NCBI GenBank assembly: GCA_021740915.1
Contig: JAIOYW010000003.1
Coordinates: forward strand, 124,001-188,000
Source: Ignavibacteriales bacterium
GTDB lineage: Bacteria; Bacteroidota; Ignavibacteria; Ignavibacteriales; Melioribacteraceae
Length of the DNA: 64,000 nt
Direction: 5' to 3'
This document shows, in pieces, positions 2,834 through 29,479 of the stretch. The position numbers were made by a program, and so were the translations under genes. The first letter of the stretch is position 1, and the number at the start of each line of letters is the position of its first letter. The notes below the pieces were generated by a model. It did no database searches. It saw only the letters and a program-made list of their open reading frames with translations, and had not been told where the DNA came from.

Positions 2834-4018
2834 TTGCTAAATAAAGATACTATAAAGAATTCAAGGAATTCCGAATTTCTTACTAAAACCATGATCATCG
2901 GTTTTGCGACTTTCCTTTCAAAAGCCTTTGTTCTTGTTCTGCCATTTTTACTGATACCTGTTGAATATAATGAATTTAACACAATTTATTATCCGCTGTC
3001 ACTTATAATTATAATCGCGGGTTTTGGTTTTGAATTTTCTTATCCGCATTGCAATATTTCGCTTCTAAAATTATTAACTGCCGTTACAGTAAATGTTACA
3101 ATCGTCGCATCAGCGTTGATTCTTACGGGTGTTCTCAATACTGATCCGGTAACAGTGATCCTGATAATTCTTGCTGCCGTTGCCGGAATATCTGTTAGTG
3201 TTACATCCTTCCATATGCTCTTTCACGGCAACATAAAGTCTTATGGTATTCTTCAGATTACATTCCATGGCGTTATTATTGTTCTATTTCCAGTAATCAA
3301 TCAGTTTGAAGGCTCACCATTTTTTTTCTATGTCCTCTTAAAAACTGCAGCAGCTTTGATAGTATTTTTATTGATCAAAAATAATTTGAAAAGGCGCGGT
3401 AATGAGATTCTAAAACTTTATACTTTCGGTTTTAATGCAATGGTTATTAACGGACTATTTACCGTAATCTTAAGTATTAATCATATTCTTGCCGTTAAAT
3501 TATTCAGTGTGGATTCCGGAAATAATATTATCCTCTCATGGATATTTGCGATTCCTCTGTTATATCTTAGCGGTATTTTCGAAAAAGTATTGTATAACAG
3601 CAATGATCTTAGAGAAAAGATCATAAACTGGTCAACTTGGAATCTATCCCTGATGATATTTTATACACTTGGGCTTGTTGTATTTATGAACTGGTTCGGG
3701 AATTTTCTGCCTGCTTCTGCCGATACGACTCTTCTTGCCAGATTTATCCCGGTCATTTTACCGGCGATATTTCTCTATTCAATATTTAATGCCTTATTAA
3801 ATGCCTATGTATTCAGAACTCTTGATTATAAATATCAGAGCAGGATAGTTGCCGGTTATTTAGGAATACTTTTAATATTTTTATCTCTGGCAATTTTAAT
3901 GGGGAATAAAATAATTTTAATCAGCGAGATTGAATTAACAATATTCAGCACCATTGCGATAATGCTTTCTATTCTGGTGAAGTCAGTTTTTTCCATTCAA
4001 TACTTCAGAAAGAATTAA
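2834..4018 (+). CDS. Wzx-like polysaccharide flippase / multi-spanning membrane protein
   Basis: A 394-residue, almost wholly hydrophobic protein with roughly ten to twelve membrane segments and short charged loops. It resembles the MOP-superfamily oligosaccharide flippases by composition, size and genomic setting, although I see no diagnostic motif. The start shown is TTG at 2834; the first hydrophobic helix begins at about residue 20 (TMIIGFATFLSKAF), which resembles the start of Wzx proteins. Its stop is one base before the start of the polymerase/ligase gene, so the two are almost certainly co-transcribed. The inferred job is moving lipid-linked glycan units across the inner membrane. An alternative is another polytopic envelope protein. 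Confidence 0.6.
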   Translation: MLNKDTIKNSRNSEFLTKTMIIGFATFLSKAFVLVLPFLLIPVEYNEFNTIYYPLSLIIIIAGFGFEFSYPHCNISLLKLLTAVTVNVTIVASALILTGVLNTDPVTVILIILAAVAGISVSVTSFHMLFHGNIKSYGILQITFHGVIIVLFPVINQFEGSPFFFYVLLKTAAALIVFLLIKNNLKRRGNEILKLYTFGFNAMVINGLFTVILSINHILAVKLFSVDSGNNIILSWIFAIPLLYLSGIFEKVLYNSNDLREKIINWSTWNLSLMIFYTLGLVVFMNWFGNFLPASADTTLLARFIPVILPAIFLYSIFNALLNAYVFRTLDYKYQSRIVAGYLGILLIFLSLAILMGNKIILISEIELTIFSTIAIMLSILVKSVFSIQYFRKN

Positions 4019-24869: not shown

Positions 24870-26144
24870 GTGGAACGGGTTTCCCGAAAAAAATTATTAT
24901 TTGATATTAATATCCCCTCACACGTAAAGAAACTTTTGCAGTTTCTTTTGGCTTTCTCCGTCTTTCAAAATATATGGGCACAACCAGATACGTTAATTAA
25001 TTTCAATCCGGCATTAAACCAATTGAATTATTATCCCTCAGTCGGTATTGATAGTCAGAAAATATTCGATAATACAAATTGGAACAAAGGCAGTGAACCT
25101 GGCTTAAGTCTTCTCAATACTCTCCCGCCCGAAATCACATATAATAATTCCGGGTTTTCAGATTTTTTGCTTGCCAGGGAAAAATTTTCACCGGCTGATT
25201 ATCCGGCACGAACTGCAGTTATATTGTTCGTAAGCGAAAATGGCATTCTGAAACAGAAGTGTTCAGGAGTATTAGTTGCTTATAATTATGTTCTGACGGA
25301 TTGCCACTGTGTCGGGATATTTGATACAAGCAGCAGACTTAGATTTTTTGACAGTATCTGGGTTTATCCCGCTTTTGACAATGGATATGAAAACCCGGTG
25401 TTTGGAAAAAGTCTTGGTGCTGAATATATCACTTTCAAATCAAATCTGACCGGTTTTTATAAAAAGGACATCGCCCTTATAAAACTTAACGATGATATCG
25501 GAGCCAAAACCGGCTGGTTAGGAATTGCATTCTCAACTGATGACAGCTATTTTGAGAATAAAGTACTTCATAAATTCAGTTATCCCGGACCCGTTGATCC
25601 AACGGATTCATCGAGAATTTTTCTTAGTGGTTCACTTTATTATAATTACGGCACTCTGGATTTGATCACTTCAGACTGGATCGGCTATAATATCACCGGA
25701 ATTCCGGGGCAAAGCGGCAGTTCATTGTTCTATACGAATAATGATGAATATCTTTCTTTCGGAGCACAGGTCTGGTCGGGACAATCAAAGCATTTAAGGA
25801 TTACTCCTGAAATATTCTATCCTTTCAGGTCAGTGATAAATAACGGCGTCTCTTCATTTAAGGTCGGACATGATAATGCAGCATTTTATTATATATCAGA
25901 AGCATATCCCAACCCATTTAATCCCGTTACCAATGTAAATTATTCAATTCCGCAGACTGGTTTGGTAGAATTGAAATTGTTCGACATTATGGGGAGGGAA
26001 GTCCTTACTCTTATTAATGAGATAAAAGTAAAAGGAGAATACCATACCACAATCGATGGCAGTCATTTGTCGGGAGGGGTATATTTTTTAGGTATTCGAA
26101 GCGGGAGATTCTATCAGGTAAGGAAATTAATTTTATTAAAATAA
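24870..26144 (+). CDS. Secreted trypsin-like serine protease with T9SS sorting tail
   Basis: An extracellular protease of up to 424 aa. A signal peptide ends near residue 38 (FQNIWAQ). The S1-like domain carries the triad His146 (VLTDCHCVG), Asp200 (KKDIALIKL) and Ser282 (GIPGQSGSSLF), the last replacing the usual GDSGG with GQSGS. From about residue 345 comes a T9SS type A sorting domain: AYPNPFNPVTNVNYSIP, then LKLFDIMGREVLTL and SGGVYFLGI...KLILLK. The protein should be exported by Sec and then across the outer membrane by T9SS. The start is uncertain: GTG 24870 is used, while TTG 24936 would give a tighter signal peptide. It stands alone between the toxin and zinc loci. Confidence 0.85.
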   Translation: MERVSRKKLLFDINIPSHVKKLLQFLLAFSVFQNIWAQPDTLINFNPALNQLNYYPSVGIDSQKIFDNTNWNKGSEPGLSLLNTLPPEITYNNSGFSDFLLAREKFSPADYPARTAVILFVSENGILKQKCSGVLVAYNYVLTDCHCVGIFDTSSRLRFFDSIWVYPAFDNGYENPVFGKSLGAEYITFKSNLTGFYKKDIALIKLNDDIGAKTGWLGIAFSTDDSYFENKVLHKFSYPGPVDPTDSSRIFLSGSLYYNYGTLDLITSDWIGYNITGIPGQSGSSLFYTNNDEYLSFGAQVWSGQSKHLRITPEIFYPFRSVINNGVSSFKVGHDNAAFYYISEAYPNPFNPVTNVNYSIPQTGLVELKLFDIMGREVLTLINEIKVKGEYHTTIDGSHLSGGVYFLGIRSGRFYQVRKLILLK

Positions 26145-26293: not shown

Positions 26294-26313
26294 TATATTT
26301 GTACTAATAATAT
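26294..26313 (+). promoter_or_regulatory. Candidate promoter (-7) overlapped by a Fur/Zur-type 19-bp palindrome
   Basis: TATATTTG (26294-26301) fits TAnnTTTG exactly. The overlapping 19-mer at 26295-26313 (ATATTTGTACTAATAATAT) is a 9-1-9 imperfect palindrome with 7 of 9 pairs matching, the geometry of Fur-family operators. It lies 20 bases before the first gene of the zinc-type operon. In AT-rich DNA such a palindrome can be chance; the assignment to Zur is inference from the genes downstream. Confidence 0.35.
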
Positions 26314-26333
26314 CAAAAATTTATTATCGATTG

Positions 26334-26672
26334 ATGGAAGAATTAAAACTAAAACAAAAAATCAGAGCTGCAATACTGTTGGGATCATATCTGATTCTTG
26401 TTTTGTTTGCTGTATTTCATCACCACCCGCATAACTCCAATGCCGTAAATGTTGTTTCAAATTCGGAATCTCTGAATTACTCCGGCCACAATAATTTTGC
26501 ACCTTGTCCTGTATGTCTTCTGCTGAATTCAGGTTTCGCAAAACCAGACAGTTATAAAACTGTATCCGGATTGGAAGGCGAAACTGAATTCCTTCAGTAT
26601 TTTAATCCGGGCGACATTTCCAGTTCACATAAGTTTTCCACTTTTCTGCGGGGACCTCCGGACAACTCCTGA
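26334..26672 (+). CDS. Small membrane protein with His-rich and CxxC motifs (metal-related)
   Basis: A protein of 112 aa starting at the ATG 26334 (a TTG three bases earlier is less likely). One N-terminal hydrophobic segment (about 12-32) is followed by FHHHPHN and then PCPVC, resembling DUF2946-like small proteins found beside metal receptors. The Cys and His residues would face the periplasm and could bind Zn or Cu. The C-terminal part is hydrophilic and unremarkable. It is the first gene of a three-gene unit with a His-rich lipoprotein and a ZnuD-like receptor. Function unproven; the family call is tentative. Confidence 0.65.
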   Translation: MEELKLKQKIRAAILLGSYLILVLFAVFHHHPHNSNAVNVVSNSESLNYSGHNNFAPCPVCLLLNSGFAKPDSYKTVSGLEGETEFLQYFNPGDISSSHKFSTFLRGPPDNS

Positions 26673-26714
26673 TTTGGTAAATATATTTTATAAACTAAAT
26701 TCTAAGGAGTTAAT

Positions 26715-27173
26715 ATGTTCATGGTTAGAAAAATCCTTGTATTCGTGGTTTTATTTTTAGTTGTTGTTGCATTTTCAGCCTGTAAGGATGATCCCGTTAC
26801 ACCACCGGAAGACCATTTTGAGGCAATCGGTGTGCAGATAAGTACTTCAGGCATACCAGTCGCATCAATTCTCAGAGGTGTGACTTCCGATACTCTTCAG
26901 GCAAGTGTCGGGGTTCTCACCGACCACTATGATATTAAATTTTACGATGAATCCGAAAATCTTCAGGATCCGCCTTCCGAAGATCATTACAAATTATCAT
27001 GGGCAATTTCCGATACTTCTCTTGTTGAAGTTCGTCAGCATGAAGGTGAAGAAGGTGGTTTTGAATTTCACCTGATGGGTAAAAAATCAGGTTTTACTGA
27101 TATAGAGTTTTTTATTCTTCATAATAATCATTCTGATTTTCGCTCAGGGAAAATTCCTGTTCTCGTTAATTAA
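26715..27173 (+). CDS. His- and acid-rich lipoprotein next to the ZnuD-like receptor
   Basis: A 152-residue lipoprotein with a type II signal peptide ending in the lipobox FSAC (Cys at residue 23). The mature part is rich in His, Asp and Glu (PPEDHFEAIGV, LTDHYDIKFYDE, PPSEDHYKLSW, VRQHEGEEGGFEFHL, FFILHNNHSDFR), suggesting a surface or periplasmic metal-binding protein. A ribosome site AGGAG sits 6 bases before the ATG. It is 42 bases after the previous gene and about 30-70 bases before the receptor gene, with a 12-bp stem-loop in between. No known family is recognised with certainty; it resembles lipoproteins that accompany zinc receptors. Confidence 0.7.
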   Translation: MFMVRKILVFVVLFLVVVAFSACKDDPVTPPEDHFEAIGVQISTSGIPVASILRGVTSDTLQASVGVLTDHYDIKFYDESENLQDPPSEDHYKLSWAISDTSLVEVRQHEGEEGGFEFHLMGKKSGFTDIEFFILHNNHSDFRSGKIPVLVN

Positions 27174-27183
27174 TATTTTTTAA

Positions 27184-27226
27184 TTTCCGGGGAGATGTGT
27201 GATTGATTCATCTCTCTCCCCGGAAA
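27184..27226 (+). promoter_or_regulatory. Perfect 12-bp intercistronic stem-loop upstream of the receptor gene
   Basis: TTTCCGGGGAGA (27184-27195) pairs perfectly with TCTCCCCGGAAA (27215-27226) around a 19-base loop. It lies between the lipoprotein stop (27173) and the receptor ATG (27245), with no T run after it. It could stabilise or process the operon mRNA, or tune receptor expression; an operator at DNA level is also possible. Confidence 0.55.
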
Positions 27227-27244
27227 GGAATACTAAGTAAAAGT

Positions 27245-29479
27245 ATGAGACATTTAAGTTTCAGAAAACCATTTTATTTTTTTTACGCTATCTTTTTTCT
27301 TATGTTCTTTCGCCCGGGAGACATCTCCGGGGAAGGGTTAACTCTCACCGGCAGGCTGCTTGATATTTCCGATGACACTCCCGTACAGGGTGCTGTTATA
27401 AGTATCGTGAATTGCGGAAAATATACGACCTCCGATTTCCTGGGTAAGTTCCATTTTACCGAATTGGACAGTGTACATCTCTCCCTAAAAATTACACATA
27501 TTGCTTATAAAGAAAATGTTGTGCATTTTTTTATCGATAGAACTGAAGATAAGATTCTCAATATCTTTTTGACTCCCAAAGTTCTTGAAATTAATCCCGT
27601 GATTGTTTCCGGATTCCATTCACATTCGGTTTTTGAGGAAATTGCAGAGAAAAGTTCTTCAATGAAAGGTAAGGAACTTGAAAAAAATCTCAGTTTTTCT
27701 CTCGCATCAACACTGAAAAATGAGGCTGGTTTCGCAATCCGTTCAATGGGACCCGCTCCCGCAAGACCGGTGATCCGCGGATTAAGCGGAGACAGGGTGA
27801 TGATGGCTGAGGATGGCACAAAAACTACCGATCTTTCAGCTACTTCACCAGATCATGCCGTAAGCATCGATCCTTTTTCCCCGGAACGTATAGAAGTTAT
27901 CAGGGGTCCGAGAGTGCTTACAAAAACATCAACTACAATCGGCGGCGTAGTTAATGTTGTACGTCATGAAATACCGTTCGAAATGAGGGACAAATTTTAT
28001 GGAACAACGGGCTTATATGGTGAAAGCGCCAATTCCGGATTCCTTTATTCGGCTGGGGGTGAACTGCCGGTCTATCCATTTATGCTTAAAGGCGAATTCA
28101 GCAGGCGCGTATCGGGTGATATGAACTCTCCCGGTGGGGTTCTCGAAAACACTCAGTCCAAAAACACTAATTATTCGTTTGGCTCCACATTTTTCTTTCA
28201 CGAGGGTCTCGCAGGTGTATCCTACAGGGACTACTCTCTCGATTACGGTATTCCCGGCGGATTTGTAGGCGCACATCCGAATGGCGTTAATATCAGTATG
28301 TATAGAAATCAGTTCAATTTCAGATCGCAGTTCGATATCGTGCAGGAGTATATTGAAAAAATCCAGCTTGATTATTCCTATGCGCTTTACAGGCATAAGG
28401 AATTTGAGGCGGCTGATCTCATCGGCGCTGAGTTCAAAGTGGGCAGTCATATGATAAACGGCAGCCTGCATTTCAAGGACATAGCGTATGCTGAGAAAGG
28501 TATTATTGGCTTTTCATCTGAAGTGAAAAAATTCGAGATGGGCGGTTTTGTATTTACCCCTCAATCGGATCTTCTTAATTTATCTGTCTTTTCCTTTCAG
28601 ACATTTTCTGCCGGTGATTTTAATTTTGAATCCGGCTTCAGGATCAATTTTGACAGGATAAAGCCTGAAATATCAATTCCTGATTCTAAGATCGGAAATA
28701 TCAGGGAGAGAAAATTCACTACCTGGTCAGCGTCATTTTCCGCACTTTATCCGCTAAGTAACCGCGTTTTTGCCGGCGTTAATATAAGCCGTTCATCCAG
28801 AGTGCCCACAATTGAGGAATTGTATTCTCAAGGGCCGCATCTTGCAGCCTATTCTTATGAAACGGGAAATCCTGATCTTTCATCCGAAAATGGATATGGA
28901 TCTGAATTTTTTATTTTCCACCGGTTCAAGTCGCTCTATTTTAATTTAAACCTGTTCTATAATTATCTCAATTCATATATAATCCCCGTCAATACAGGTA
29001 CGATCAATTATCAGACATTTCTGCCAATATTTGCAACGAGAGAAACAAATGTTACACTCACTGGTTTTGATTTTGAGATGGAATATGATTTTATGCCTGA
29101 TTTTCAACTGAAGACCACAATTGGTTACACAAGCGGTAAATATCGTGCTACAGGGAAGCCCCTGCCGCAGATTCCTCCGCTTAAAGGTATGTCGGAGATA
29201 ATCTTGGATCTGGGAAAAATAAGTATTTCAGCCCAGGCTGAATGGGCGCTTGAACAAACACGTGTCGATGAATTTGAACAGCCGACTGCGGGGTATTTTA
29301 TTAATAATCTCTTCGTTCAGGGATCCTTTGTAAAGGGCGGATATATTCATAATATTTCAGTCGCTGCGCTGAACATTTTTAATAAAACTTACCGGAATCA
29401 TCTTTCGAGAATTAAAAGTATCCTTCCTGAACCGGGATTCAGCGCGCGGGCAACATATAAATTGTTTTTCGAAATTTAA
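27245..29479 (+). CDS. TonB-dependent receptor, ZnuD-like (probable zinc uptake)
   Basis: An outer-membrane receptor of 744 aa from ATG 27245 (a TTG at 27203 would lie inside the hairpin loop). A signal segment leads into a CarboxypepD_reg-like domain (GRLLDISDDTPVQGAVI). The plug follows: LASTLKNEAGFAIRSMGPAPA, RPVIRGLSGDRVMMAEDG, then SATSPDHAVSIDPFSPERIEV and IRGP. The 'SPDHAV' stretch next to the plug strongly resembles ZnuD, the TonB-dependent zinc receptor. The barrel continues to the C-terminal aromatic residue (LFFEI). With the His-rich lipoprotein and the His/Cys small protein it forms a likely zinc-acquisition operon. Other metals remain possible. Confidence 0.82.
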   Translation: MRHLSFRKPFYFFYAIFFLMFFRPGDISGEGLTLTGRLLDISDDTPVQGAVISIVNCGKYTTSDFLGKFHFTELDSVHLSLKITHIAYKENVVHFFIDRTEDKILNIFLTPKVLEINPVIVSGFHSHSVFEEIAEKSSSMKGKELEKNLSFSLASTLKNEAGFAIRSMGPAPARPVIRGLSGDRVMMAEDGTKTTDLSATSPDHAVSIDPFSPERIEVIRGPRVLTKTSTTIGGVVNVVRHEIPFEMRDKFYGTTGLYGESANSGFLYSAGGELPVYPFMLKGEFSRRVSGDMNSPGGVLENTQSKNTNYSFGSTFFFHEGLAGVSYRDYSLDYGIPGGFVGAHPNGVNISMYRNQFNFRSQFDIVQEYIEKIQLDYSYALYRHKEFEAADLIGAEFKVGSHMINGSLHFKDIAYAEKGIIGFSSEVKKFEMGGFVFTPQSDLLNLSVFSFQTFSAGDFNFESGFRINFDRIKPEISIPDSKIGNIRERKFTTWSASFSALYPLSNRVFAGVNISRSSRVPTIEELYSQGPHLAAYSYETGNPDLSSENGYGSEFFIFHRFKSLYFNLNLFYNYLNSYIIPVNTGTINYQTFLPIFATRETNVTLTGFDFEMEYDFMPDFQLKTTIGYTSGKYRATGKPLPQIPPLKGMSEIILDLGKISISAQAEWALEQTRVDEFEQPTAGYFINNLFVQGSFVKGGYIHNISVAALNIFNKTYRNHLSRIKSILPEPGFSARATYKLFFEI

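Follow-up and report, generated by a model that had tools for sequence, protein, structure and literature searches.

What does a small gene rich in histidine and cysteine codons do at the head of an operon for an outer-membrane metal receptor? The question arises in a stretch of 64,000 nucleotides (nt) of contig JAIOYW010000003.1 from an Ignavibacteriales bacterium (GCA_021740915.1), hereafter the window, in which three co-directional open reading frames (ORFs) encode a small His/Cys protein, a lipoprotein and a TonB-dependent receptor. Coordinates are positions in this window, on the + strand, unless a locus is named. An earlier description made from the letters alone (the sequence-only reading) had reported these ORFs, with FHHHPHN and PCPVC in the small protein and SPDHAV in the receptor, all of which are present as described, and had taken the small protein for an envelope zinc chaperone. 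The best reading is now that the small gene, the lipoprotein and the receptor form a conserved three-gene operon for zinc uptake, whose first gene had been misread: what is conserved in it, and the way its 3′ end pairs in the RNA, do not support a chaperone and make it look like a gene for a cis-acting regulatory leader peptide, predicted to arrest the ribosome. The computation finds the gene set itself, the conservation of motifs and of their spacing, a locus-specific pairing between adjacent genes and four retained zinc ligands. To our knowledge, outer-membrane zinc import has been little studied in these phyla.

A predicted leader peptide

The small gene is an upstream ORF (uORF) for 112 amino acids (aa) when read from its ATG (26334-26672), with a TTG one codon upstream, and would encode an RGPP arrest peptide. 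Twenty such proteins were aligned: that of the window, 17 from receptor-linked relatives and two detected by similarity. No variation is seen at H29, H31, C58, R106, P108 and P109. They belong to HHHPH (codons 29-33, 26418-26432), whose HxH, kept in 20/20, would provide metal ligands; to CPVC (codons 58-61, 26505-26516), where Cys58 is the invariant cysteine; and to RGPP (codons 106-109, 26649-26660), the predicted arrest motif, found as R[AGSP]PP in all 20 proteins and in 0/289 other ORFs of the same DNA. In the window protein this last motif, which the sequence-only reading had overlooked, is followed by three residues; across the alignment it stands 2-5 residues from the C-terminus. Spacing to the Arg is also kept in 20/20, with the Cys 47-50 and the HxH 75-83 residues before it; over the 18 receptor-linked loci the Cys-to-Arg distance (47-50) has a standard deviation (s.d.) of 0.9, whereas the stretch before the Cys varies from 50 to 77 residues (s.d. 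5.7). The overall identity of family members to the window protein is merely 17-25% or 11-26%, and a hydrophobic N-terminal stretch is visible in the alignment. Over 79 loci the RxPP is written with all six Arg and all four Pro codons, and it is therefore the peptide, not the DNA, that is conserved. The two Cys of the window CPVC lie 48 and 45 residues before Arg106; a CXXC at that place is found only in the window among the 18 order-level loci, the others having HxH and one Cys.

The link to DUF2946 that the sequence-only reading had proposed to check did not materialise, since the window protein gives no match to that model (PF11162); among 42 members scanned, six others match it weakly (best E 1.8e-4). 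Against Pfam and NCBIfam, the 20 aligned proteins gave nothing of note beyond two weak matches to DUF6769 (best 1.6e-4) and two to CzcI (best 1.7e-4). A profile search of the own genome returned only the window copy, and a weak match at C26 was rejected as a second one, as it lies in a 208-aa ORF without RxPP. RAPP uORFs with CPVC also precede Plug and CarbopepD_reg proteins of 810 and 824 aa at L078:5933-6283 (+) and L079:5585-5929 (-), which are perhaps a second receptor type under a similar leader peptide.

A predicted hairpin over the next Shine-Dalgarno sequence

The uORF and the lipoprotein gene are separated by 42 nt, and a predicted hairpin, likewise missed before, joins the end of the former to the Shine-Dalgarno (SD) sequence of the latter. 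Its 5′ arm (26664-26674) contains AACTCCT (26664-26670), in the codons Asn-Ser-stop and starting one codon after RGPP, and pairs with probabilities of 0.79-1.0 with the 3′ arm (26698-26711), where AGGAGTT (26705-26711) holds the lipoprotein SD, AGGAG (26705-26709); the probability that this AGGAG is unpaired is 0.01 in three folding windows.

The pairing is specific to each locus. Over 18 loci (L078 and L079 left out), in five of which the gene after the uORF is the receptor itself, the duplex between uORF tail and start region averages -10.0 kcal/mol with its own partner and -8.0 with swapped ones; one in 20000 permutations was as good, and 0/2000 synonymous recodings reached the sum. In 50 control pairs of co-directional genes the mean was -4.3. 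A second set, which had played no part in forming the hypothesis, comprised 56 loci, after five of 61 with gaps outside 15-160 nt (L134, L141, L144, L174 and L178) had been dropped, and gave -7.3 for own against -4.8 for swapped partners, with 0/20000 permutations and 0/500 synonymous shuffles as good; many of these loci have no obvious SD, and the tail then pairs with the bases preceding the start codon. The start codons of the uORFs in L062, L069 and L072, and of some of the next genes, were assigned by hand. Since the pairing is strong and locus-specific and the predicted opening modest (see below), sequestration of the downstream SD by the uORF 3′ end is well supported, and its opening on a ribosome stall weakly so.

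The receptor and the case for zinc

The receptor ORF (27245-29479; 744 aa) has Plug, TonB barrel and CarbopepD_reg domains, and its best NCBIfam match is ZnuD (NF038289; E 1.1e-54, 186 bits, below the curated cutoff of 950). Its best solved relative by sequence, profile and fold is ZnuD as well (4rdr), the fold comparison, made with a predicted model, giving E 3.8e-35, a TMt of 0.73 and about 20% identity. The mean confidence of that model (pLDDT) is 71.5, with a poor plug, residues 112-185 and 195-207 being under 50. All four zinc ligands are retained in the profile alignment to 4rdr, on which the correspondence was counted by hand: Asp203-His204 of the plug (27851-27856; ZnuD Asp99-His100), Glu386 (28400-28402; Glu340) and His532 (28838-28840; His499). 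They are invariant in 17/17 receptors (L069 left out) and in 71/71 of a larger set (without L134 and L163, which have no receptor ORF above 600 aa), the window being in both. The ZnuD-like call of the sequence-only reading is thereby borne out, also by the comparison of a receptor model with ZnuD that it had suggested: the receptor is ZnuD-like by its predicted fold and zinc site, and not a ZnuD member by model score.

Zinc is proposed as the signal because of this receptor type. Two gene arrangements also speak for zinc. At locus L068 the small gene, lipoprotein and receptor, in this order, directly follow genes for ZnuA, an ABC ATPase, an ABC-3 permease and a FUR-family regulator, and in four Poribacteria loci (L257, L268, L271 and L275) a ZnuA-like gene of about 23% identity, detected by tblastn only, follows the receptor.

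The lipoprotein and the conserved unit

A receptor of 41-51% identity is present in 12 of the 37 relatives searched, and in 12/12 it is accompanied by the lipoprotein and the small HxH/Cys gene in the same order, so that the gene unit is not a chance arrangement; the sequence-only reading would have been undermined by small genes not conserved with the receptor, and the opposite was found, the lipoprotein being a conserved partner. Five further relatives combine a receptor of 27-31% identity with the small gene and no intervening lipoprotein.

The lipoprotein (26715-27173; 152 aa, lipobox Cys23) is modelled by AlphaFold as an Ig-like beta-sandwich with a pLDDT of 90.7. Comparison of this fold returned generic domains of Ig-like, filamin and S-layer type (best VIA, Z 10.0) that point to no function, and searches of 13 and 42 members against Pfam and NCBIfam gave no named family, only scattered weak matches. 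His34, His136, His139 and Asp141 are invariant in 13 lipoproteins; a set of 42 shows no variation at Cys23, Gly126 and His136, and at least 90% of its members have His34, His139 and Asp141. These four residues are a plausible candidate metal site, and the idea of a zinc chaperone may still apply to this protein. In six of the 12 relatives (L062, L063, L068, L069, L071 and L072) the Ig-like lipoprotein domain is doubled in tandem, the second copy lacking HxxHxD in five of the six and retaining it in L068.

Distribution across genomes

The lipoprotein profile matched in 80 of 345 genomes of the phylum, from which 72 loci were taken, one per genome, the other eight being already in the earlier set. 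A lipoprotein ORF was obtained from 70 of them (none from L151 and L201), a receptor ORF follows it in 69/70 and an RxPP uORF precedes it in 61/70. These uORFs have a Cys 44-53 residues before the Arg in 61/61 and HxH in 60/61, at 70-88 residues in 45/61. In L181, the uORF is split over two frames upstream of position 3492 (oriented), with RSPP in the second, possibly through a frameshift or a sequencing error.

A scan of named genomes seeded with the receptor was considered for 78 loci of a longer list, in which some genomes overlap the phylum-level set. Upstream sequence of 1400 nt or more is available for 65 of these loci; among them, the uORF is found in 55, the lipoprotein in 57 and both in 48, and all 58 uORFs of the 78 have a Cys 44-50 residues before the Arg. 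Those with uORF and lipoprotein carry the names Ignavibacteria, Melioribacteraceae, Balneolaceae, Rhodothermales and Kapabacteria, as well as Zixibacteria, Latescibacterota, KSB1, Neomarinimicrobiota and Poribacteria. A cultured carrier is Fodinibius sediminis DSM 21194 (L247), which has the uORF, with RSPP, the lipoprotein and the receptor. Most Gemmatimonadota loci listed have the uORF and no lipoprotein match; thus, L238, L248, L260, L263 (with merely 730 nt of upstream sequence), L266, L270 and L273 show a RAPP/RGPP uORF and no lipoprotein match before the receptor. The lipoprotein was not found in the viral contigs or plasmids searched, nor the receptor in the plasmids searched (E 1e-60).

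Promoter and Zur control

Ahead of the unit lies TATATTTG (26294-26301), a candidate Bacteroidota-type -7 element that had already been pointed out and that follows TAnnTTTG, which we take to be the Bacteroidota -7 consensus. The Fur-type 19-bp palindrome said to overlap it fared otherwise: it matches at 7/9 positions, 568/2000 shuffles of the last 90 nt contain an equally good one, and Fur/Zur control through this chance-level palindrome was rejected. A different palindrome, TGCAAN5TTGCA, is perfect upstream of 8/10 znu regions examined, the own genome included, and is a probable Zur box of the lineage; it is missing in L091, where genes stand just upstream of znuA, and in L093. It was seen at L088:4639-4653 and before the znu regions of L089, L090, L095, L096, L099, L100 and L068.

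The conserved Zur box for which the sequence-only reading had proposed to compare homologous loci was not found in 18 uORF promoters scanned over 200 nt, where the best site has 2-4 mismatches to TGCAAN5TTGCA and none has fewer than two; four of the 18 stand at two mismatches, and shuffles average 3.4, with 7.4% at two or fewer. In the own genome, up to one mismatch gives 207 sites per strand, against 24 for a control pattern, too many for defining a regulon. The probable Zur box thus appears to mark znu promoters and not that of the uORF operon. In L063, a single ORF with FUR-family and metallo-beta-lactamase domains (L063:4491-5558, +) lies directly upstream of the uORF operon.

Relation to known systems

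CruR of Bordetella pertussis, a small exported DUF2946 protein with CXXC at 90-93 and RAPP at 139-142, heads the operon cruR-bfrG-bp2921; copper relieves its arrest and shuts the operon, RAPP is needed for expression, and Rho-dependent termination takes place in the 162-nt cruR-bfrG intergenic region (PMC9426467). Its arrest was shown in vitro, and RAPP/RGPP uORFs precede TonB-related genes across Gram-negatives (PMC12992588). The small peptide of the window, like CruR, comes first in an operon that includes a metal receptor of the TonB-dependent type, and its CPVC is placed much as the CXXC of CruR, which precedes the C-terminal RAPP by about 46-49 residues. As described, CruR differs in its copper signal, its Rho-dependent termination over 162 nt and a PepSY_TM protein in third place, whereas the locus described here has HxH in addition, a gap of 42 nt, a predicted hairpin that would hide the SD, a lipoprotein of Ig-like fold and a receptor resembling ZnuD. 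With the RAPP/RGPP class (PMC12992588) it shares an R[A/G]PP close to the C-terminus (here RGPP) and a TonB-related gene downstream, and the hydrophobic N-terminal stretch may correspond to the localization signal of the class; the paper on this class names copper, with ‘zinc’ 0 times in its main text, and neither the lipoprotein nor the hairpin is among the class features in the sections available to us. Since CruR and the RAPP/RGPP uORFs are published, the class is known; the present locus adds to it a receptor of zinc type, the lipoprotein and the proposed gate.

The gate has precedents in SecM-secA (PMC10987492) and CutF-cutO (PMC9973294), where a stalled ribosome opens a stem-loop hiding the downstream SD; in the window, too, the downstream SD pairs with the 3′ end of the predicted arrest ORF, and opening by a stalled ribosome is proposed. 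SecM, unlike the proposed peptide, senses secretion (PMC10987492), and CutF has CxxxC, responds to copper and turns on a copper oxidase (PMC9973294). Small proteins linked to zinc-regulated operons are also known: CC2720 and CC1775 of Caulobacter are DUF2946/CutF-like genes near zinc genes (PMC4176598), and CzcI of Cupriavidus is comparable. CC2720 and CzcI, unlike the small protein here, head efflux operons and have no arrest switch described in the portions of the sources available, and CzcI is without a C-terminal proline motif. The receptor resembles ZnuD of Neisseria meningitidis (PMC4557270, PDB 4rdr) in fold and in the Asp-His-Glu-His zinc site, and differs from it in its low identity in the fold alignment, its CarbopepD_reg domain and its score under the ZnuD cutoff. 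Searches with narrow wording in the open-licence PMC literature found no zinc version of the RAPP uORF/TonB switch and no paper on ZnuD with a lipoprotein in Bacteroidetes. The locus is best read as a zinc-type, hairpin-gated version of the RAPP-uORF mode, and is not DUF2946 or ZnuD by model score.

Proposed mechanism

The most probable pathway is that of one zinc-uptake operon controlled post-transcriptionally by its own first gene, for which we infer the arrest, the sensing of zinc and the direction of the response. The uORF product would start its export through the hydrophobic N-terminus, and the ribosome, on reaching RGPP, would stall as in the RAPP class, with the Cys about 48 and the HxH about 77 residues from the Arg, probably level with the translocon or past it. 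When zinc is low, the stall would persist and the ribosome would cover 26664-26670, blocking the hairpin and freeing the SD (26705-26709), so that the lipoprotein and then the receptor would be made. With enough zinc, by analogy with CruR, the metal would bind HxH and Cys on the nascent chain and release the stall; translation would end, the hairpin would re-form and the operon would be shut. The receptor would then import zinc through the outer membrane, assisted by the Ig-like lipoprotein as a metal-binding accessory. A nascent-chain switch of this kind, in which a metal-scarce stall exposes the lipoprotein-receptor start and metal-replete release hides it, is in our judgement probable. The fuller claim stands at even chances, namely that HxH and Cys, kept at a constant spacing to RGPP, sense zinc within the translocon or past it and control lipoprotein and receptor through the hairpin. 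The switch would then stand in for Zur in this operon, in Ignavibacteria, in Balneolaceae and, as far as the gene set goes, in several candidate phyla.

Several observations weigh against this proposal. The predicted opening of the SD on an RxPP stall is modest, the unpaired probability rising on average from 0.17 to 0.33 in the 18 loci and from 0.35 to 0.54 in the second set, and staying at 0.46 in the 50 controls; opening is lost rather than gained in L062, L070 and L076, and in the window the release lies between 0.20 and 0.74, according to the folded stretch and the edge assumed. Pairing is weak in L076 and L018 (-2.6 and -4.5), several of the 56 loci do no better than their own synonymous shuffles, and some show no pairing. 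Among the listed receptor-seeded loci, eight of 58 uORFs lie more than 300 nt from the next gene, too far for an SD-hairpin gate. Nine of the 70 phylum-level loci have no regular RxPP uORF: none was seen in L168, L185, L188 and L189, and the irregular cases are L139 and L160 with KAPP, L143 with a long tail, L181 with its split frame and L186 with a contig end. As for zinc, only L068 of the 12 order-level loci adjoins znuACB, tblastn gave no ZnuA, ZnuB or Zur match in the other loci of L061-L076 (16 loci), and six of the 12 receptor-bearing relatives have genomes without a ZnuA-family match. Moreover, CXXC, the copper motif of CruR, is present in the window peptide, as CPVC, and a CXXC stands at that place in 31/61 phylum-level uORFs. 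Finally, the sequences are related, and the counts are therefore not independent events.

Alternative explanations

The same switch might respond to copper, another ion or export status instead of zinc, which we regard as unlikely. CruR and CutF respond to copper, the window has CPVC and a few family members resemble DUF2946 weakly; on the other side stand the four ZnuD ligands of the receptor, the ZnuA-ABC-FUR genes adjoining the unit in L068, the ZnuA-like neighbours in Poribacteria and the restriction of CXXC to the window among the order-level loci. We also regard as unlikely an arrest peptide that would act chiefly through Rho, by termination in the gap before the lipoprotein gene, and not by freeing the SD. 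Rho is used by CruR (PMC9426467), and the few gaps above 300 nt would suit it, but the gap of the window is 42 nt, against 162 in cruR-bfrG, and the pairing of the start region is locus-specific.

The two other explanations give the switch little or no part. In an ordinary Zur-repressed ZnuD operon the uORF would be a minor extra, as a FUR-family gene beside znuA in the own genome and the four promoters with a two-mismatch site might suggest; the perfect box of most znu promoters and the lack of any closer site in the uORF promoters make this quite improbable. Even less credible, indeed very unlikely, is the mature envelope metal chaperone of the sequence-only reading, with RGPP and RNA pairing as incidental features. 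Metal-ligand residues and a hydrophobic N-terminus would fit it, yet in proteins of such low identity it is the C-terminal RxPP, absent from the other ORFs, that is kept, and the pairing of the 3′ codons with the next start beats synonymous shuffles in two sets.

If the proposed arrest switch is right, translation arrest would be a second, post-transcriptional control of zinc uptake, metal-sensing arrest peptides would gain a metal besides copper, and a so far uncharacterised lipoprotein family would be linked to zinc receptors, as their likely partner. Clear, readily testable predictions follow from the strict spacing and from the hairpin.

Neighbouring gene

Just upstream of the operon and outside the conserved unit, the window encodes a trypsin-like protease with a type IX secretion C-terminal sorting domain (24870-26144, +).

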